From the NCBI GenBank assembly GCA_021646465.1, contig SOET01000025.1, positions 1-64,000 of the forward strand: a DNA stretch of 64,000 nucleotides, in the 5' to 3' direction. Position 1 is the first letter of the stretch. The number at the start of each line of letters is the position of its first letter. Positions 4,439 to 63,482 of the stretch are shown here, piece after piece. Both the position numbers and the translations under genes were made by a program. Origin of the DNA: Candidatus Kuenenia hertensis. Lineage in GTDB: Bacteria; Planctomycetota; Brocadiia; Brocadiales; Brocadiaceae. The notes beneath the pieces are model-generated. The model ran no database searches. It saw nothing but the letters and a program-made list of their open reading frames with translations, and was not told where the DNA came from.

Positions 4439-5185
4439 ATGCGAATGCGTAAAATACTCATTGTTCATGAAACCCGGATATTATGAACATTACTCAAAAC
4501 ATACATTATATCGGAACTTAATGATGTTGATGTGATCGAGGCTTCTTCTGTATCAGAAGCTTTGGAGAAATTTAAAGAACAAAAATTCGAGGCAATTCTT
4601 TGTGGAATGCAATTTAAAAAAACTGATGGTGTAAATCTCTTTAAAGATTTAAAAAGGAAGAAATTAACAGGGATACGCCCTTTATTATTGTAACTTCAAC
4701 AGGAACGGTATTCAACATTATCTCATATCCCCCTTTACACCAATAGAATTAAGGGAAAAGTTCAATACCGTTTGCGGTCCCCGCCAATGGCGTACGCACG
4801 ACAGAATAAGCATACCAGGAGCTAAGGCCATAATTTACATGAACAGCGACTCTATAGAAGCAGATGTAATTAACATGAGTTAAGAAGGGATACTTTGCGA
4901 CATTACATGTATAAACTCTTACAACGATTTGCTAAACAGCACACACATTACTATCGTATTCCCTGCCCAATTTGATAACGCACAGATTAAAATCTTATGG
5001 TGCAAACTCCTTCGGGTGAACATTTCAGCTGGAATGAAGTATACGTTCCGAAATGTACTTCCGAACACATGCGGGTTGTATGGCAAATTATAAAAATGTC
5101 AGATGAAGATAAGGAAAAATTTCAGGAAATCTGTAAAAAAATCGAAAAAGAGCATAAGAATATAGAGGCAGTTAAGAAACAGTAA
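4439..5185 (+). pseudogene. decayed response regulator with receiver and PilZ domains
   Basis: An N-terminal MRMRKILIVHE at 4439 starts a CheY-like receiver that hits TGA at 4484, continues in the same frame (VIEASSVSEALEKFKEQ), and frame-shifts near 4665 into DTPFIIVTSTGT. From about 4800 another frame reads as a PilZ-like segment (RISIPGAKAIIYM, then INMS-stop-EGILCDITCIN), and from 4997 a third frame gives the C-terminus (WNEVYVPKC). The order of pieces is intact but at least two stops and two frame changes break it. PilZ domains bind cyclic di-GMP in known cases. Confidence 0.7.
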
Positions 5186-5606: not shown

Positions 5607-8600
5607 CTACAGATTATATAAATCAATCACTTCCTGGCCTGTTAATGCGCGGTGATAAATGCGGACCTCATCTATTGTCCCGAAAAAGAAATGTTTCGGA
5701 GCATAACCGGTGGCGCCGATTTTTGTAACAATGTCATTTTCATTGGTTACAGAGATATCACCATTGGTGTCTACAAGGCTGCCATTGAGATATAAGGACA
5801 TTCCATCTGCCGTATCAAATGTTACCGCTACGTGGTACCATATACCAGGAGCAAGCCCTGCATTATAATTTATCGGGGTCATAGAGTTTCTTTGGAATAT
5901 TAGATTCCCTTCCGGTGATATGAAAAACTGATACGTTTGATATGTTTTCCCCACTATCATGAGCTTGCCCAAACTGGTTATCTTTATCCAAGCGGTAATG
6001 CTGAAGGCATCAGCAAGGTCCATGTCTCCTATGTCTACGTAACTATCTGCTCCGTCAAAATCAAGCCCTCCTCCGTTTCCGTTTTCACCGGTCGTCCAGA
6101 CGGCACCACCATTGATTGTGCCATTGTTCACGTTACCTGAAGAATCAGCGGCAACTTGCCCGCTACCCTCCTCGAAGGCATAATAGGACAACAGACCATT
6201 GGTATCTAGCCTGCCGTATAAATTTTGTATTTCCAGACTCGTTAGTGCCTGACGATAAATGCGGACATCATCAATTGTCCCGAAAAAGAAATGTTTCGGA
6301 GCATAACCGGTGACACCAATTTTTGTGGCAAGGTCATTTTCATTGGTTACAGAGATATCACCATTGGTGCTTACAAGGTTGCCGTTGAGAAACAGTGACA
6401 TTCCGTTTGTCATATCAAATGTTACCGCCACGTGGTACCATGTATCAGGAATAAGCCCCGCATCGTAATTTATCGGGGTAGCAGAGTTTCTTTGAAAAAC
6501 AATATTCCCTTCCGGTGAAACAAAAAACTGATACGTTTGAAATGTTTTCCCCAAGATCATGAGCTTGCCCAAACTGGTTATCTTTATCCACGCTGCAATG
6601 CTGAAGGCGTCAGTAAGGTCAATGTCTCCTATATCCACATAGGTATCTACTCCGTTAAAACCGAGCCCTCCGCCATTTTCACCGGTCGTCCATGCAGAAC
6701 CGCCCATAATTGTACCATCATTGCCATTGCCGGAGGAATCACCTGCAATAGCGCCAGCTCCCTCGTCAAAAGTATAGTATGCATAAAGACTATCTTCTTG
6801 AACCGAAAATTGTATTGCTAAGCCATTTGAAATAGCAGCAGAATTATAAGAGTATAATTTTCCGATATTACCATTTGCATCTTCAATACCTACTGTTGCA
6901 GAAAGACCGTAATCAAAATCACTATCACCAAAAGAAACCTCCTCATACTGAAAGAGGATATTATTACTCCCTTCATAAAGGGTTACTTCAAAAGTAGCCT
7001 GACCTATATCAGAATAATGAGGAATATTGTGCCACTCAATAGTGAATGTCCTGTTTGGACTCGTTCCCTCAAGCAAGTAATAAATTGCACCTCCCTTCGA
7101 TGGATTTAAATCGTCCCAAAACGGTGCGATTATGTTGTTGGGAATATTTGAAGACGGTATGATACTATTATACCATACCGAACCATCTGTATCGCCGAAA
7201 GCAAGATAGCCATTAGAGGATACTTTAACAGTATTGTATGTATTGCCATAAAATTCAAAGTCAAATCCTATGGATATTTCTGTTGATGAATCATCATCTT
7301 TTATTCCGGTATTTACGCCTGTCGTAGCATCTATCCAGTTGTATGTTGTCTCGTCATTACACGCGTAATTTTTAATTACCGTGCCTGAAATAAACTCAGT
7401 TAATGTATTTCCAGCATAAGAAGCCTCTACAGTGAGTGTCAATTGCCCCACTAAGGACGGAGTCCAATTTCCTGAGTATATACCATCGTTTGCAGCAGTA
7501 TCGGGCAATACTCCGTCATCCAGGAGGTTGAAAGATACACCTTCAGAGGTAACAACAGTTACCGTTGCACCGATAATGGAAGTGCTGCATTCGGAAAGCG
7601 TTGCAAAAACAGAAGTGTTCGCATCGTAATCTGCCTCAAATCCATCGCCAGGAGAAATATACATTCTAAGATTACCGCTTTCACATGATAAGGCATTGTT
7701 AACATTCAACCGGCCTCCGGCAATAGTATAAGCGGACAATGGGGACAATGGGTCAACAGTGTTCATAATCAAATTTTTTATTGCTATATAATCGGCAGAC
7801 AAGTTTTGATCCCAAACAAGTGCAACTGCACCGGCAACATGGGGGGTTGCCATAGAGGTCCCGCTTTTATATGAATATGCATTTCCTGGGATAGTGCTTA
7901 ATATATTACTGCCGGGCGCCGCTAAGTCTACGCTTGTAACCCCATAATTAGAAAACCCCGAAAGTTCATCATTGTTATTTGTTGCCGCAACTGAAATTAT
8001 ATTATTTAAGTTGTAGGATGACGGGTAATGTGGCGTTGCGTCTGTATCCAAACCGTCATTGCCCGCAGCGGCAACAAATAACATGCCTTCATTTTCAGTT
8101 GCCTGTATGGCATCGTAAAGGGCCTGTGAATATTCTCCTCCGCCCCAGCTATTACTGGTTAATTTTACATTAACTCCATTCATTTTATGGGTCAATATAT
8201 ATTCAAGACATTCTATGGCGTCGGTGGTATATCCAAAGCCACCGGAATCAAGGAATTTACATGCCATAATTTTTATATTCCAATTAATACCAACAATACC
8301 AATTCCATTATTACCGGCAGCGCCAATGGTTCCCGAACAATGAGTGCCGTGGCCATTATCGTCATAAGGATCACTATCTTTATTGGCAGTATCAATACCA
8401 TAGATATCATCAATATAACCATTGCCATCATCATCGATATTATTTCCGGCTATTTCGTAAGGATTTATCCACATATTTGCGGCAAGGTCCTCGTGTGTAT
8501 AATCTACACCGGTGTCAATTACCGCCACAACTATATTTGCATTCCCTGTAGTAATATCCCATGCTTCCGGGGCATCGATATCAGCATCAGCGGTACCAAA

Positions 8601-37171: not shown

Positions 37172-37258
37172 GCCCAACGCCGCGCATCACCGGCAACAAA
37201 AAGCAGAGCGACTAAGGAGCGGCGCTTTTTGTTGCCCGAGTGAATGCGATTGTTAGAT
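37172..37258 (-). other. attC recombination site of the apeA cassette
   Basis: This 87-bp site on the minus strand starts with R'' ATCTAAC (37258-37252) and ends with R' GTTGGGC (37178-37172). The arms pair: AATCGCATTCACTCGGGCAA with TTGCCGGTGATGCGCGGCG, and the inner GGCAACAAAAAGC with GCTTTTTGTTGCC. The apeA stop codon lies inside R''. The R'' core is the exact reverse complement of the cassette's leading GTTAGAT at 38665-38659. Confidence 0.88.
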
Positions 37259-38642
37259 TTCATTGAACTTCTGCTTGAGTTTATAGTTATTTGTCAGTAT
37301 CCCTTGGATTTCCGACTCTGTGAAACCTAGCTGCTGTAGAAGATGGAGTTGAAAGATGGCTTCCATTTTTTGACACAACACCCATAAATCCATACCTTTA
37401 GCAGACTCCTCTTCTAACTCTTCACTATAATGGGTTAGGTAGTTTCTGGTATTGACTATCCCTCTAACTATTTTGTTGCGCTCCTTGCTATTCCCTAGAT
37501 ATGTCTTATACGGCTCGATAATTTTTTTAATTCTTTGTCCTAGATTAATTTCGTTACCGTGAAATAATCGACCTCTCAACCATTTTCGATGTTCTTTTGG
37601 CGCTAAGCAAAGCATGGTAGCTACGAGCTTCCTGAATTTGCCTCTATCCATAAGGGTTTCGGACGATGTTCTCCTATGGTAGGTCTCCAAACCTTGCGCT
37701 AGCGCTAAAAACTTCCCGTCTAAGTATTTGTGAGTTCCTGTGACAGCCGAAAAATATAAACCGAGCGCTGGCCTTATTGTTGAGTAAGCTTCAAGCCAAT
37801 TATTAATTATAACCTCGGCATTTTCACGAACTTGCCCAAATCGAAACAACATTCTATGGCTGTAGATTTTAGGTATCTCCTCAGAAAATGGGAGGCTTGG
37901 ATAATATACTTTAATAGGCACTGGTCTCTTTTTGCCATCCGACCCCTCGGTTATGATTTCATTTGAGGTGGCAGAAACATCACTGATGGTGACGGTTGCA
38001 TCAACTGCAAAACAGAGCAAATATGTTATCTGATGCAGTGTTGCAATGAAATCGGGAAGTTCTTTAGCTTCATCAGAAGATAATTTTAAATATGCTTGTT
38101 GGGTTATCTTTGCTTCAGTTGTGTTAGGGGGTTCTGGAAGTGTATAGCCAAAATAAATATGAAGTTTGAAACCATTTCTTAGGTTGTAAACAATTTCGTC
38201 TTGGGGTGTGTAGCTTATTGTGGCTGTCCTGTAATCATCGCCATATGACACAGATATCCCGCCTGATCCCAAGCCATTCATTTAGCCCCTCGACTGAAAA
38301 AGATACTGTGTTGAATGTAACTGCCTCGTCTTTTTCGTACGCAACGCCGCTTAACACTTGGTTTACATGCACTAATGATTTAGAAATTCCTCCGAACGCA
38401 AAATTCTTCTTTTTGTAAAAACAACTTTCTAGAGTTATCAGACCATCTTTTTCTACATGGCCAATAATTCGACTGAGATCATCTTCTCCATTAAGTGCTT
38501 TAATGCTTTCGTCAAAAAGCCCGACAACTTCCAGTTCAATATCACCACCATCCGATATAGTGAGAGTTTCCGGGATCTTCTTGCTCTCATTATCGGGAAG
38601 CCAAAAATAGCCGGACTTTTTGTATTCTTCTTTAATTCTCAC
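37253..38642 (-). pseudogene. apeA: ApeA-type HEPN anti-phage gene with a frameshift
   Basis: From the GTG at 38642 (AAGAGG 5 nt upstream) the first frame encodes about 120 residues of an ApeA N-terminal domain (YFWLPDNESKKIPETLTISD, ending EGLNEWLG). The rest lies in a second frame from about 38266 (SGGISVSYGDDYRTATISY) to 37253. It carries the HEPN motif RNYLTH (Rx4H) and ends KFNEI. One extra base near 38267 explains the shift. ApeA is a single-gene RNase-type defence protein in the literature. It is the only gene in a single-gene integron cassette. It may be a true pseudogene, a programmed shift or a read error. Confidence 0.8.
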
Positions 38643-38645
38643 GAG

Positions 38646-38680
38646 AGCCTCTTGGGAAATCTAACAAGTTATTAACAAGT
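38646..38680 (-). other. attI-like integron insertion point
   Basis: On the minus strand ATAACTTGTTAGAT ends at 38659, where the cassette begins. The core GTTAGAT fits GTTRRRY and is the reverse complement of the cassette's own attC R'' core. The preceding ATAACTTG is shared, apart from one base, with ATAAGTTG just before the first cassette at 60514. Confidence 0.7.
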
Positions 38681-38734
38681 TTTCTTCATTTGAACAAACA
38701 GGTATAGCGCACGTCAACCAAAAAAACATTTATG

Positions 38735-38763
38735 TTGACATATGAAGTCATCATAAATATAGT
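38735..38763 (+). promoter_or_regulatory. promoter of the integrase fragment
   Basis: TTGACA (38735-38740) and TATAGT (38758-38763) with a 17-bp spacer lie 56 bp before the integrase ATG, between the insertion point and the gene. Confidence 0.6.
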
Positions 38764-38818
38764 TTCTCACTCGTTAGCAACACATATTGAGTGATAACAG
38801 GAAATAGGATAAGTATTC

Positions 38819-39130
38819 ATGCTCAATATCCCTGTCGCTTTATTTTCAAAATACAGCATACTACTGAGAAAAAAATCGGTTACGGCTTCCCTTCATAATA
38901 ATTATAAAAAATGGTTGCGGTATTACCTCAATTTTTGCCATAAATACTGTTACGTGTATGCTGAACGGGAATTCCTTAAACATTTTACGGTCAAATTGCA
39001 TGAAAAACATCAATCTCCTGCAATGCAGGAGGAGGTAGCACAAGCAGTGTCCCTTTATTACGAGATGCTACAAGCCACCATTCACATTCCCGTCTTGTTC
39101 CCAAGTTCCTGCTTGGGAACACAATTGTGA
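38819..39130 (+). pseudogene. truncated integron-type tyrosine recombinase (IntI-like N-terminus)
   Basis: About 90 residues are a recombinase N-terminal SAM-like domain (FSKYSILLRKKSVTA, YKKWLRYYLNFCHKY, EEVAQAVSLYYEML), closely resembling the start of integron integrases from Nitrospirae, Deltaproteobacteria and planctomycetes. After about 39083 the reading enters a palindromic repeat element and stops at 39130. The catalytic domain with Arg and Tyr is missing. It is divergent from the apeA cassette, exactly the intI-attI-cassette layout. Confidence 0.7.
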
Positions 39131-59161: not shown

Positions 59162-59207
59162 TGGTGGAGCTGAGGGGATTCGAATCCCTGACCTTTTGAA
59201 TGCCATT
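59162..59207 (-). other. tRNA 3' fragment, likely attachment-site scar
   Basis: On the minus strand GGCATTCAAAAGGTCAGG continues into GATTCGAATCCCCTCAGCTC and CACCA: the end of a tRNA from the anticodon stem to the CCA. No 5' half exists upstream. Such 3' halves are left by integration of elements that use tRNA genes. The T-stem has one mismatch to the expected pairing. Confidence 0.65.
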
Positions 59208-59368
59208 TCTTTAAAGACCATTTTTAGCAATTTTTATAACCAACTGGCTTCGTGTCTGTTACGACTGTAATTATTTACTTCTCAATATCTTACAACATAG
59301 AAAATTCCTGCCCGTTCCTTTTTATTCCTTTCGATTCCGCAGGGTTCGGTCACAATTTGGTCACAGTT
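59204..59368 (-). repeat. direct repeat copy A (165 bp)
   Basis: It begins CATTTCTTTAAAG and ends TTGGTCACAGTT, and matches the 165-bp copy at 60145-60309 along its whole length at roughly three-quarters identity. In minus orientation both copies share a short open frame (CDQIVTEPCGI versus CDQIVTESCGI), perhaps the tail of an integrase gene. It adjoins the tRNA fragment. Confidence 0.7.
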
Positions 59369-59423
59369 TTGATTTCAATATTCGTGATGAAATTATTCAT
59401 TTGGAGTTTAGGTCTTTACTGTT

Positions 59424-59693
59424 TTAATAAACTTCATCATGAGTTCCAATATCAATTAACAAAACTTCGTTATCTTCTATAAACTTAAAAACTACTCTAT
59501 GATCATAGGCTATGCTAAATGCCCAAAAGCCTTCAAGTTTTCCCACCAATTTGTGTGTTTTTAATCGTGGATTAAAAGGGGTTTTTGAAAATAACGTTAT
59601 AGCTTCCCAAAATTTGTTTTTAAGTTCGTCATTATATTTTATCTTCTTTTTGTAAATCCGCTTAAAACCCTGATCCCATACTATTTTAATCAC
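59424..59693 (-). CDS. RelE-type toxin
   Basis: The 89-residue protein has the RelE/ParE fold pattern: MIKIVWDQGFKRIYKKKIKY, HKLVGKLEGFWAFSIAYDHRVVFK and VLLIDIGTHDEVY. Members cut mRNA on ribosomes. Its start overlaps the antitoxin gene by 8 nt. The pair is flanked by direct repeats, consistent with a mobile origin. Confidence 0.85.
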   Translation of the reverse strand: MIKIVWDQGFKRIYKKKIKYNDELKNKFWEAITLFSKTPFNPRLKTHKLVGKLEGFWAFSIAYDHRVVFKFIEDNEVLLIDIGTHDEVY

Positions 59694-59901
59694 ATTCTAA
59701 ATCCTTATATAAATCTTTTATAGTACCTTTTTTAACCAATCCCTTTTTTAAATTACCCATAGACTCTTTGGCTCTTTTTGCCATAGCATCCCTTTTTGCC
59801 TCTATTAGTTGTTTTTTTATAACATCTATTGCATACTCCTTGTCCTCTAATGGTAACTTGCTAAAATCTTCGATTAATTTATTTAAAGTATTAGTACCCA
59901 T
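59686..59901 (-). CDS. antitoxin of the RelE-type pair
   Basis: The 71-residue helical protein begins MGTNTLNKLIEDFSKLP and ends in KKGTIKDLYKDLECD. GGAGGAGG precedes the ATG. Its position directly upstream of and overlapping the toxin identifies it; a DNA-binding motif is not obvious. Confidence 0.75.
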   Translation of the reverse strand: MGTNTLNKLIEDFSKLPLEDKEYAIDVIKKQLIEAKRDAMAKRAKESMGNLKKGLVKKGTIKDLYKDLECD

Positions 59902-60144: not shown

Positions 60145-60309
60145 CATTTCTTTAAAGGTCATTTTTGGCGATTTTTATAGCTAAATGGTTTTGTGTCTGT
60201 AATAAATGCAATTGTTTGTATTGCAAAATCTACATAATAAAGAAAATTCTGAACGTCCCTTTTTCTTCCTTACAATTCCACAGGATTCAGTTACAATTTG
60301 GTCACAGTT
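60145..60309 (-). repeat. direct repeat copy B (165 bp)
   Basis: It begins CATTTCTTTAAAG and ends TTGGTCACAGTT, the partner of 59204-59368 at equal length. The segment between the copies holds the toxin-antitoxin pair. Confidence 0.7.
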
Positions 60310-60501
60310 AAATATATAAAATTTTTAATGCTATAAAAATAATACCCGGAAAATCGTTAAAAGAAAAAGATTGCAAATTTGATAGAATTTGTTACATGTA
60401 TTAAATTGTAAGGTAAAAATGAAAGAAGGATTATAGAATTTATATTAAAATAAAGGTGTTTTTTTTCGGTTAACATACAAAAAGTAATGATATCCAGAAC
60501 T

Positions 60502-60520
60502 GTATAATAAGTTGTTGGGA
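60502..60520 (+). other. attI-like insertion point before the cassette array
   Basis: ATAATAAGTTGTTGGGA ends with the core GTTGGGA (60514-60520), the exact reverse complement of the TCCCAAC R'' core at 61088-61094. That marks 60515 as the first cassette's left edge. The preceding ATAAGTTG resembles the site before the apeA cassette. No integrase gene is seen nearby. Confidence 0.65.
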
Positions 60521-60548
60521 TATAAATAAGGAAAAAAAATATAGTTAC

Positions 60549-61058
60549 ATGAAATACAAAAAAACATTTTTCCACTGTGGCAATCAACTTCTCAACACAC
60601 TTTCGACAGAGATAAAAGAAATCGAGATGATCATAGAAAAAGTCAAATGGGCTAATTCATTTAAACATAACCAAAAAAATGAGATTACCTACGAACACCA
60701 AACGGCATACAATAAAGCTTTTGATGCTCAATTTATTAATTGCGGATGGGAATCTCAGCCTCTTCTAAGAGTTGAACCAAGACTCATTGGGGACTTTAGA
60801 AAGGGATTAGTTTTCGTAGAAATCCAGTTCGGTAATAGTTCAACACTTTACCGTGATTACTATAAGTTCCAGTACGGTTTGATTAATGGACTTTTATCCT
60901 TGTCAGTTCTTATTGTTCCAACAAAGCCAAGTGATTTTTTTCCTACAAGACCCAAAAGTGTTTTGAATATGGCTGAATACGATTTAGCATATTCATATTT
61001 AACGGTTTTACCGATAAATGTACCAGTGTTATTGATAGGGCTACTCCCTGAAAATTGA
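60549..61058 (+). CDS. BglII-like restriction endonuclease (cassette 1)
   Basis: The 169-residue protein ends with LLPEN. The catalytic core contains EPRLIGDFRKGLVFVEIQFGN with an Asp and the E-I-Q triad of the BglII-type PD-(D/E)xK fold, then YRDYYKFQYGLI. Such enzymes cut GATC-related sites in known members. The gene is cassette 1 of the array; no methylase accompanies it, so host protection must come from elsewhere or the enzyme is not a classical restriction enzyme. Confidence 0.75.
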   Translation: MKYKKTFFHCGNQLLNTLSTEIKEIEMIIEKVKWANSFKHNQKNEITYEHQTAYNKAFDAQFINCGWESQPLLRVEPRLIGDFRKGLVFVEIQFGNSSTLYRDYYKFQYGLINGLLSLSVLIVPTKPSDFFPTRPKSVLNMAEYDLAYSYLTVLPINVPVLLIGLLPEN

Positions 61059-61087
61059 AGCCGGAGTAATAGAATAACGAAATCGAA

Positions 61088-61154
61088 TCCCAACCAATGC
61101 CTGGAACTGACTTTTTGCGCGGGGCGCAAAAAGCAGCTCAGGCTAATGTTAGTC
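61088..61154 (+). other. attC site 1
   Basis: This 67-bp site has R'' TCCCAAC (61088-61094) and R' GTTAGTC (61148-61154). The arms AATGCCTGGAACTGACTTTT and AAAAGCAGCTCAGGCTAAT pair with a bulge, around GCGCGGGGCGC. R'' complements the array's first core GTTGGGA. Confidence 0.88.
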
Positions 61155-61158
61155 TCTT

Positions 61159-61869
61159 ATGACTAGACCAATACAAAAGCAATTTGAAATTTACTACGCT
61201 GATAGTTTAGCAAAGGCTATGGGCTATAATTGGATCATCTCTACTCCTCCCAATGAAACAGATTGGCCTGATCTTTTGATTCAAACTCCGGCTGATAATT
61301 TTGGTTTAGAAGTTCGTGACATATTTGTTGATGAGCACAGCAATGGCTCATTTGAAAAAAGAAGTGAATCATTCAGGCAAAAACTGTTAAACCAGTTATC
61401 AGCTAAATACTATGAAAAAAAGAATTCTCCCATCTTATTAGAGGTAAGCGGGCCTTTTGATAATAAAATTGCTGAATCTATTCTTAGCTATCTCCTATCT
61501 ATTGACTTTCAAGAGTGGAAAAAAATTGAGCACGATATAATTCTTAACGGAACTAAAACAAGATTATATGTTGATGGTCTGCCAAGTTCATTTGCAAATT
61601 ATAATAGATGGCGATACATTGATGACAATATAGGATGGGTTCAACGAATAAGCGATATAGATGTTGAAATTATTACTAAGGATAAAAGCCTTAACATTAT
61701 TAAATACAAAAAAAATAATAACAAAGTTTCGTTGCTCATTGTAGCAAACCGTATTAAAAATAGTGGTAAATTGTTATTGGAGAAGAATAGTCAAATCAAT
61801 ACGCATGGCTTTGATAAAGTATTTTTTTATATGCATCCATTAGATGCTATTGTTTACGGAAGCGACTAA
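61159..61869 (+). CDS. probable PD-(D/E)xK nuclease (cassette 2)
   Basis: The 236-residue protein is not recognised as a named family. A nuclease-like motif stands out near residue 30-50: PNETDWPDLLIQ, then FGLEVRDIF, that is D...ExR with a hydrophobic strand, fitting a PD-(D/E)xK core with Arg/Lys variation. The remaining sequence is mixed alpha/beta (VSLLIVANRIKNSG). The ATG lies 4 nt after the cassette boundary, and the stop is inside attC2's R''. A defence role is inferred from the neighbours. Confidence 0.65.
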   Translation: MTRPIQKQFEIYYADSLAKAMGYNWIISTPPNETDWPDLLIQTPADNFGLEVRDIFVDEHSNGSFEKRSESFRQKLLNQLSAKYYEKKNSPILLEVSGPFDNKIAESILSYLLSIDFQEWKKIEHDIILNGTKTRLYVDGLPSSFANYNRWRYIDDNIGWVQRISDIDVEIITKDKSLNIIKYKKNNNKVSLLIVANRIKNSGKLLLEKNSQINTHGFDKVFFYMHPLDAIVYGSD

Positions 61870-61996
61870 CAACGCGTTGCAGTGAAATCGAACCACACGG
61901 CACTGTTGGGGCAGGTTGGAGTTTGAGATTTGCAAATCGGTTGTTTTGCTCGGTGAAGTAATTCAGTGATTCGATTCACTGAGCTTAGCGTTAGGC
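61864..61996 (+). other. attC site 2
   Basis: This 133-bp site has R'' GACTAAC (61864-61870), the exact reverse complement of attC1's R' GTTAGTC, and R' GTTAGGC (61990-61996). The arms CAACGCGTTGCAGTGAAATC and GATTCACTGAGCTTAGCG pair imperfectly. The Mrr gene at 12931-13848 is followed by a very similar sequence. Confidence 0.88.
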
Positions 61997-61999
61997 TCT

Positions 62000-63352
62000 A
62001 TGAATGCTAGAGAGGTTTCAATGGAAATGACACCAGAACTATCAGACCTCATAACTATCAAGAAAAACATAGAAGATTATTGTAATGATTCCTTTGAAGT
62101 GAAAGGTTTTGAGAATTGGGCATATAGTTCTGACTTATTAGAGGTAATACTTGGACCGACTCTTTACCTTGAGACCATATCAACTGATTTCAATAAACAA
62201 TCGTCTAACAGAAAGTTAAAGCAATCTTTGCAAAAGTGGCTTGCATCAAATCCATCTCTACCCTCTGAGGAACAAGTAAAGGCAATTCAAGAATCTCATC
62301 AAAAATCTTACGAAGAACGAATTGAAATCATTAGAAAGAAATATGAAAGTTTAATTAAAGAGAAGGATGCAGAAATTATTAACATACTTCGAGAAAAGAC
62401 GATTGGATTTCCCTCTCTTGCTCGTGCTTTGGCATACTATGAAACGCTATCAGACTTCCACCATTCATATTTCCTAGAAAGAAAGTCACATCCAGCTGTT
62501 AATACTGCGGCAAAATTTTCACATTTGGCTACCGAAAAACGTGAACTATCAAGAAAGCTGAAAATTACTATTGCAAGACTCGATTACTATGAGAAGTTAT
62601 TCCCTTGGCTTGCCGACTATGTTGATGTCGATATAGATGCTCTACTATCTTACGTCTCAGAGCAAGATAAAGAGCCTGATGATGACCCAGTGCGTAAATT
62701 TTTAGCGATAGGAGAGTATGAAAAACTATCTACTGCTGAAAGAAATCAGCTTGCGCTTGAACGATACTGGATGGGGAAGAAAAAACCTTGGCAGCTTGGT
62801 AGAGACTATGAGCGATATATTGGTTATCTTTATGAGAAGGATGGTTTTGATGTTCGCTATTTTGGAGTAGAAGAGGGCCTCGGAGACCTTGGTAGAGATT
62901 TAATATGTACGCGTGACTTTGAAGTATTAGTTGTGCAATGTAAATACTGGACAGCTAACAAGACAATCCACGAGAAGCATATTTCGCAGCTCTTCGGCAC
63001 TACAGTTATGTATGAAATAGAGCAAAAATTGAGTAATGGTAATGAACAACAAAAATTCATACATTATAAGCCTGTTTTCATTACTTCAACTACTTTATCT
63101 GAAAAGGCATTTAATTTTGCTGAACATCTGAACGTGGAAGTCAGAGAGGGAGTTAAACTTGATAAATATCCATGTGTCAAATGCAACATAATTGGTCATA
63201 GTGGTGAGAAAATTTATCACTTGCCTATGGATCAGCAATATGACAAGTTAATAACGTCTCGGAAGGATCGGTTTTATGTTAAGTCGGCAATCGAGGCTGA
63301 AAGACTTGGATTTCGGAGAGCGTGGAAATGGCTTGGTAATAGACAAGCCTAA
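62000..63352 (+). CDS. Mrr-like nuclease with coiled-coil N-terminus (cassette 3)
   Basis: The 450-residue protein has a helical N-terminal half with a coiled coil around 100-140. A C-terminal Mrr-type catalytic domain (from about 268) has YERYIGYLYEKDGFDVRYFG, GDLGRDLIC and VVQCKYW: the D and Q-C-K positions of the PD-(D/E)xK fold. Members act on foreign or modified DNA. The ATG lies 4 nt after the cassette boundary, and its TAA overlaps attC3. It has no methylase or partner. Confidence 0.85.
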   Translation: MNAREVSMEMTPELSDLITIKKNIEDYCNDSFEVKGFENWAYSSDLLEVILGPTLYLETISTDFNKQSSNRKLKQSLQKWLASNPSLPSEEQVKAIQESHQKSYEERIEIIRKKYESLIKEKDAEIINILREKTIGFPSLARALAYYETLSDFHHSYFLERKSHPAVNTAAKFSHLATEKRELSRKLKITIARLDYYEKLFPWLADYVDVDIDALLSYVSEQDKEPDDDPVRKFLAIGEYEKLSTAERNQLALERYWMGKKKPWQLGRDYERYIGYLYEKDGFDVRYFGVEEGLGDLGRDLICTRDFEVLVVQCKYWTANKTIHEKHISQLFGTTVMYEIEQKLSNGNEQQKFIHYKPVFITSTTLSEKAFNFAEHLNVEVREGVKLDKYPCVKCNIIGHSGEKIYHLPMDQQYDKLITSRKDRFYVKSAIEAERLGFRRAWKWLGNRQA

Positions 63353-63482
63353 ACAACGCGCTGGAGTTGAACGAGTGCCGCAGGACGCTGTTCGAGCGTG
63401 TTGTTGGCTTGAGGAGGCCTAAGCAGTTTATGAGTCAGCGGGTGTGATTCAGTGGCGCTCATCACTAAGCTTAGCGTTATAC
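63347..63482 (+). other. attC site 3
   Basis: R'' is GCCTAAAC (63347-63354), one extra A compared with GCCTAAC, the complement of attC2's R' GTTAGGC. R' is GTTATAC (63476-63482). The arms ACAACGCG and GCTTAGCG pair weakly, and the site is 136 bp. This points to a further cassette to the right. Confidence 0.72.

Follow-up and report, generated by a model that had tools for sequence, protein, structure and literature searches.

Three predicted nuclease genes in an integron cassette array at an attI-like site of Candidatus Kuenenia hertensis

In a 64,000-nucleotide stretch of the Candidatus Kuenenia hertensis genome, the sequence supports an array of integron cassettes that encode three predicted nucleases. 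This stretch (hereafter the window) comprises bases 1-64000 of the 65,115-base contig C9, in a draft genome of 4.17 Mb on 89 contigs. We consider it probable that the array is anchored at an attI-like site without an adjoining intI, and that its three cassettes are independent of one another, each encoding a predicted single-gene endonuclease that would restrict incoming DNA. Nuclease cassettes and integrase-less arrays are both known kinds. A class of dispersed attI-like sites, to which the anchor of this array appears to belong, was not found described in the literature searched, which lay largely outside subscription journals; these sites, mostly without intI, look new.

Cassette boundaries and the attI-like site

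The array consists of the following features, given in window coordinates.

60487..60516, + strand: attI-like site, crossover after G60514, no adjoining intI; 90% identity over ~30 nt to the C79 attI region
60514..60520, + strand: leading core GTTGGGA of cassette 1, exact complement to R'' at 61088
60549..61058, + strand: ORF1, 169 aa, BglII/BstYI-like predicted endonuclease (PF09195) with D82, E91 and Q93
61088..61154, + strand: attC1 (67 nt), hairpin and R boxes, end sequences atypical
61159..61869, + strand: ORF2, 236 aa, Pfam-orphan with a PD-(D/E)xK-like motif (P37-D38, FGLEVR with E51)
61864..61996, + strand: attC2 (133 nt), profile score 34.6 against a best shuffle of 26.7
62000..63352, + strand: ORF3, 450 aa, Mrr-type catalytic domain (PF04471; GDLGRD...QCK)
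63347..63482, + strand: attC3, ends similar to attC2, R'' with one inserted A

The original prediction had paired a leading core with the R'' of the same cassette throughout, and all three pairs are present. In cassette 1 the complement to TCCCAAC is exact (7/7), as it is in cassette 2 between GTTAGTC at 61148 and GACTAAC at 61864 (7/7). In cassette 3, GTTAGGC at 61990 pairs with GCCTAA(A)C at 63347, the bracketed A being the insertion. Two ORFs had also been said to start 4 nt after a boundary, which is correct for ORF2, but ORF3 starts after 3 nt. The last two ORFs do end inside attC as claimed, the stop codons of ORF2 (61867-61869) and ORF3 (63350-63352) both lying within R''.

The window was scanned for attC sites by R''/R' boxes, L''/L' complementarity and hairpin folding energy, with a threshold L of at least 21. 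Over the 64 kb, three matches were found, namely attC1, attC2 and a site at 37172, whereas 60 dinucleotide shuffles gave an expectation of 0.03. An attC profile was also constructed from 15 attCs, all from outside the window (class 1 integrons, Pseudoalteromonas, Shewanella, a Neomarinimicrobiota MAG and the same-genus C79 and G002 integrons). With this profile attC2 and the site at 37172 (score 35.6) exceed all shuffles, whilst attC3 by itself does not. The attC1 hairpin has a near-perfect stem and unusual ends. The 3′ 36 nt and the 5′ 16 nt of attC3 are 78% and 88% identical to those of attC2, respectively, and it was accepted because of this resemblance and because of its position. Judged by bottom-strand folding (R'', L'', L', R'), attC2 is clear, attC1 qualifies by its hairpin only and attC3 by likeness to attC2; neither of the latter two is canonical. 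A covariance model of reference attC ends was also attempted. However, RNAalifold gave zero consensus pairs because the spacer varies among attC sites, and a sequence-only version was left unused. Rfam and ARAGORN gave no matches over the window, and the DNA of attC3 had no further match in plasmids or elsewhere in its own genome.

The array withstood the attC tests, in that not all three sites fail. Were the boundaries chance inverted repeats with no integron present, the failure of attC3 alone to beat the shuffles and the atypical ends of attC1 would be readily explained. The excess of scanner matches, the two exact 7-nt cores, the stop codons within R'' and the attI match described below would not, and we regard this explanation as almost certainly wrong.

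The left flank of the array (to G60514) was joined to its right flank (from T63477) and searched against the collected sequences. Only one place matched, in the space that separates intI from the first cassette of the C79 integron. In both, the common stretch, ATGATATCnAG(A)AACTnTATAATAAGTTGTT, runs as far as the crossover, and the C79 attI match scores 45 at 60.5 kb compared with 30 at the best other place in the window. The attI core pattern (see below) is matched at 60499-60517. Moreover, the joined site forms an 11+1+11 near-palindrome with 9/11 pairs, matching the expectation for a tyrosine-recombinase core site. A related sequence, GAAAACTTGTTAATAAC(A)TTGTTAG, is found at the same position in the relative G378:C36, which has a full-length intI, and at the window's 38.7 kb locus. 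Upstream, the 60.5 kb site shows 75% homology over 190 nt to another attI-like site on C83.

A chromosomal IntI might instead have inserted the cassettes at a chance secondary (attG-like) site, in which case the resemblance to attI would be accidental. Integration at attG has been described and is proposed for ordinary CALINs (PMC12444791), and this genome does encode IntI. However, the ~30-nt match to the C79 attI stops exactly at the crossover, and the homology with the C83 site extends over 190 nt upstream; an attG origin is thus improbable in our judgement.

The array had originally been described as integrase-less. This is accurate for its surroundings: no intI lies beside it, no IntI remnant was found near the 60 kb array, and loss of intI at a contig edge is ruled out by 60 kb of contiguous sequence on the attI side. 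It is incomplete in that the array is anchored at an attI-like site and the genome carries two full-length integron integrases, which lie on C31 and C79 and exceed the curated cut-off, together with fragments, including a partial one on C63. Of the parts of a complete integron, the 60.5 kb locus has the attI-like site at its first cassette and lacks the adjoining intI. Like a CALIN, it has at least two attC with cassettes and no intI nearby; CALIN arrays are a known kind, and an IntI supplied in trans is able to mobilise them (PMC12444791, PMC9668308). It differs from a CALIN in its anchorage at an attI-like site common to the intact C79 integron and to many dispersed copies.

The array segment lies between two copies of a tRNA-Ala sequence, and its left side has the following features.

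59162..59208, - strand: partial tRNA-Ala(GGC), 3′ end, left flank of a putative island
59424..59901, - strand: YafQ-like toxin (PF15738, E 2.9e-9) and a small upstream gene, same putative island

The second tRNA copy is a 3′ part at the contig end, from contig position 65061 and therefore outside the window; the flanking repeat is about 48 nt long with one mismatch. A region of C14 encoding a phage-type integrase has sequence in common with the segment. The array segment would fit a tRNA-targeted island, although a clean empty site was not seen in relatives. Diverged copies of the sequence adjacent to the tRNA repeat occur at 59190-59370 and 60145-60324 of the window, as well as on C14, on C76 and in relatives, and are possibly traces of stacked island insertions. 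Just beyond the window, the same putative island encodes a NERD-domain protein with a topoisomerase-type zinc ribbon (C9:64213-64911; L016 6213-6911).

Our preferred explanation is that three cassettes, each of one gene plus attC, were placed in order at an attI-like site between the tRNA-Ala copies. Such placement would require an integron integrase, which may have been encoded by an adjoining intI that has since been lost, or elsewhere with IntI acting in trans.

Three predicted endonuclease genes

ORF1 and ORF3 belong to the families to which they had been assigned. ORF1 matches PF09195 (BglII) with an E value of 2e-8 and 34.6 bits, against a curated cut-off of 26, and contains the D...ExQ motif. 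In a weak alignment, its D82, E91 and Q93 are placed opposite D119, E128 and Q130 of BstYI, which we take to be the catalytic residues of that enzyme. Compared with the BglII/BstYI endonucleases, with which it has the family match and the motif in common, ORF1 is shorter and stands without an adjoining cognate methylase. The original prediction had stated that the array lacks methylases, and none was found within it; the adjoining cognate methyltransferase of a type II restriction-modification system is thus missing there. N6/N4 methylases are encoded elsewhere in the same genome. An AlphaFold2 model of ORF1 built from two sequences was discarded (pLDDT 41).

ORF3 matches PF04471 (Mrr_cat) with an E value of 1.8e-9 and 38.2 bits, against a curated cut-off of 21, and its catalytic D...QxK motif is present. 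It shares the Mrr_cat domain and GDxGxD...QxK with Mrr-type restriction endonucleases, to which it adds a long helical N-terminal region and a C-terminus containing CxxC. A sequence search found no relative of ORF3 with a solved structure.

The claim that ORF2 is PD-(D/E)xK-like fared less clearly. No Pfam family was matched, yet P37-D38 and FGLEV with E51 are common to thirteen relatives and the structure model is confident (pLDDT 87). On the other hand, a fold search with this model ranked nuclease folds first at E values of 0.09 or worse, none of them significant; the best-ranked matches include EcoRV, I-Ssp6803I and Holliday-junction resolvases, with unrelated folds ranking between them. 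ORF2 has a PD...E-x-(R/T) motif and finds its best fold matches among the PD-(D/E)xK nucleases EcoRV and I-Ssp6803I, but differs from these in that neither the sequence nor the fold match is significant and in that R or T takes the place of K as the third catalytic residue. Motif, predicted model and weak fold matches together make ORF2 a candidate nuclease.

Relatives of ORF2 were also sought elsewhere, as had been suggested, and are found bounded by attC in two other phyla. On a Shewanella contig (L044) the relative has the leading core GTTAACT at 4980, R'' AGTTAAC at 5691 and its stop inside attC. On a Neomarinimicrobiota contig (L042) the relative directly follows an attC, and the closing ATCTAAC complements the leading core GTTAGAT. 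No attC was detected around the remaining relatives. The occurrence of ORF2 relatives in attC-bounded cassettes of other phyla indicates that the family moves between phyla as a cassette; conserved synteny without attC, which would speak against a cassette, is not what these contigs show. The ORF2 family may thus be regarded as a new candidate nuclease family, cassette-borne across phyla. Two other matches were taken as chance, namely that of one ORF2 relative to PD-T7-1 in PADLOC (E 0.008) and an hmmsearch match to a fusion glycoprotein construct (E 0.012). None of ORF1-3 was found in the viral contigs searched, and neither ORF1 nor ORF2 in the plasmids searched.

The three genes had been read together as a cassette-borne defence set. 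This goes too far, as they look like independent single-gene cassettes, and any cooperation or anti-phage activity would be hypothetical. Each product is a predicted DNA endonuclease that would most likely act as a single-gene system in restricting incoming DNA. Modification dependence is probable for the Mrr-like product, whilst the BglII-like product would need either a modified target or protection of the host. A type II endonuclease on its own might do harm, which counts against our preferred explanation.

Dispersed attI-like sites and their cassettes

Thirty-three genomes of the family were screened for the attI-like core pattern ACTKKWTAATAASTTGTTR, allowing one mismatch, with the reversed pattern as a control. 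The core occurs 43 times in 19 of the 33 genomes, against 3 occurrences of the reversed pattern; nine sites are in G001, a relative from the same genus, and six in the genome of the window. Conservation is higher at positions -30 to -16 (0.52 bits) than at positions +7 to +24 (0.10 bits), the core itself having been left out of the count because it was selected by pattern. Beside the 43 sites, tblastn with three IntI proteins revealed one intact intI and five that are broken or truncated. At the other 37, no IntI was found in the available flank, which extends for at least 1 kb upstream at 35 and is too short at two. Of 37 testable sites, 18 have an exact complement of the leading core where an ORF ends, compared with a mean of 1.4 and a maximum of 6 in 300 permutations; 12 of the 18 are without intI. 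The 60.5 kb site would belong to a group of attI-like sites that are scattered over genomes of this planctomycete family and mostly lack intI.

Tandem pairs of attI-like sites, on the same strand and 1.2-3.3 kb apart, are present in loci L147, L149 and L144. G378:C60 (L079) has an attI-like sequence, but no attC was found there and it was left out as an attI-anchored array.

The window itself contains a truncated integron (37172-39130), with an intI stub, an attI-like site and one complete cassette.

38819-39130, + strand: intI stub, first 92 residues of an IntI, 82% identical across 92 aa to a relative's IntI
38662-38680, - strand: attI-like site of the truncated integron
37172-38665, - strand: ApeA-like HEPN gene cassette, in which the gene appears frameshifted into two ORFs

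Such loci bear on whether the 60.5 kb array is the remnant of a complete integron whose intI has been deleted, the other dispersed sites likewise being fossils. This is compatible with our preferred explanation except that it denies present service in trans. Broken or truncated intI at five other sites, the window's 38.8 kb locus amongst them, points this way. So does an intI-less site on G001:C6, where 182 nt are 97% identical to the leader found at a site with a broken intI, and so does G001 as a whole, which gave no full-length IntI match despite its nine sites. However, no trace of intI exists near 60 kb or beside most of the other sites, the conserved upstream stretch has a median of only ~55 nt at most sites, and the window's genome has two intact IntI. 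We give general decay slightly less than even credence. Two intact integrases and many sites without an intI trace leave room for service in trans.

The cassettes at these sites are mixed in content, and integron cassettes with defence genes are already known (PMC12444791; PMC9668308). First genes at attI sites of the family include a UG14-type DRT reverse transcriptase, TIR, NucS-like, PDC-S14, PDC-S31 and DUF4238; others have ordinary functions (TauE, DoxX, isochorismatase, aquaporin). PADLOC matched 7 of 20 first genes at E<=1e-5, a raw count without a background rate in which not every first gene is a demonstrated cassette. Amongst these seven is a radical SAM protein that matches pVip, possibly by superfamily only. 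The attC array of the C79 integron encodes a TIR protein, a DUF726 protein and a sub-threshold match to the MTES_1575 nuclease. Where the other full-length IntI is encoded (G000:C31:78001-81000; L011 950-2860), the first cassette carries an ORF without a family directly followed by an N6/N4 DNA methylase, and the attC at its end has an R'' complementary to the leading core; the two genes are plausibly a restriction-modification pair. Defence-type genes in cassettes of the genome and the family include TIR, the ApeA-like gene, an XhoI-type restriction-modification pair, DRT and further PADLOC candidates.

Two of these loci were observed in relatives. The first integron cassette of G123 (L082, G123:C1, 668-2378) contains the XhoI-type endonuclease and its methylase. 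The UG14-type DRT reverse transcriptase (L135; G001:C19, 264-1784, - strand; PADLOC E 2e-211) lies downstream of an intI-less attI-like site, and no attC was detected at this locus.

The nuclease-like cassettes might also have no role in defence, being passenger or decaying genes, or serving DNA repair or competition. The ordinary metabolic genes at other sites are in keeping with this, as is the frameshift in the ApeA-like cassette at 38 kb. PADLOC support for ORF1-3 is also slight, with a weak match only for ORF1 (E 7e-4) and no convincing match for ORF2 or ORF3. Set against this, ORF1-3 are all intact, ORF1 and ORF3 keep their catalytic motifs, and there are the seven PADLOC matches, bearing in mind that these are a raw count. 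We see a role outside defence as a genuine possibility towards which the evidence does not lean. According to works cited in PMC12444791, sedentary chromosomal integrons of Vibrio act as anti-phage libraries. As described there, they have cassettes with defence-type genes in common with the present arrays, which differ in being short and placed at scattered attI-like sites rather than forming one long array, and in that their defence role is predicted.

Tentatively, and with some doubt, we suggest that these genomes may contain a distributed integron, in which one or a few IntI would serve many attI docking sites scattered over the chromosome and its islands, every site having a promoter-like sequence of its own upstream. 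Cassettes would then each stand first at a site of their own instead of queuing in one long array, and the three-nuclease array would be one non-autonomous docking site. Integrons are usually described as one intI, one attI and one array, with intI-less arrays regarded as stray clusters of attC. In the present genomes, an attI-like site whose upstream sequence is conserved occurs in up to nine copies per genome, mostly without intI and often with a textbook-bounded first cassette. Sites that work in trans would escape the first-position limit on expression in an array, whilst fossil sites would form a record of many losses of intI.
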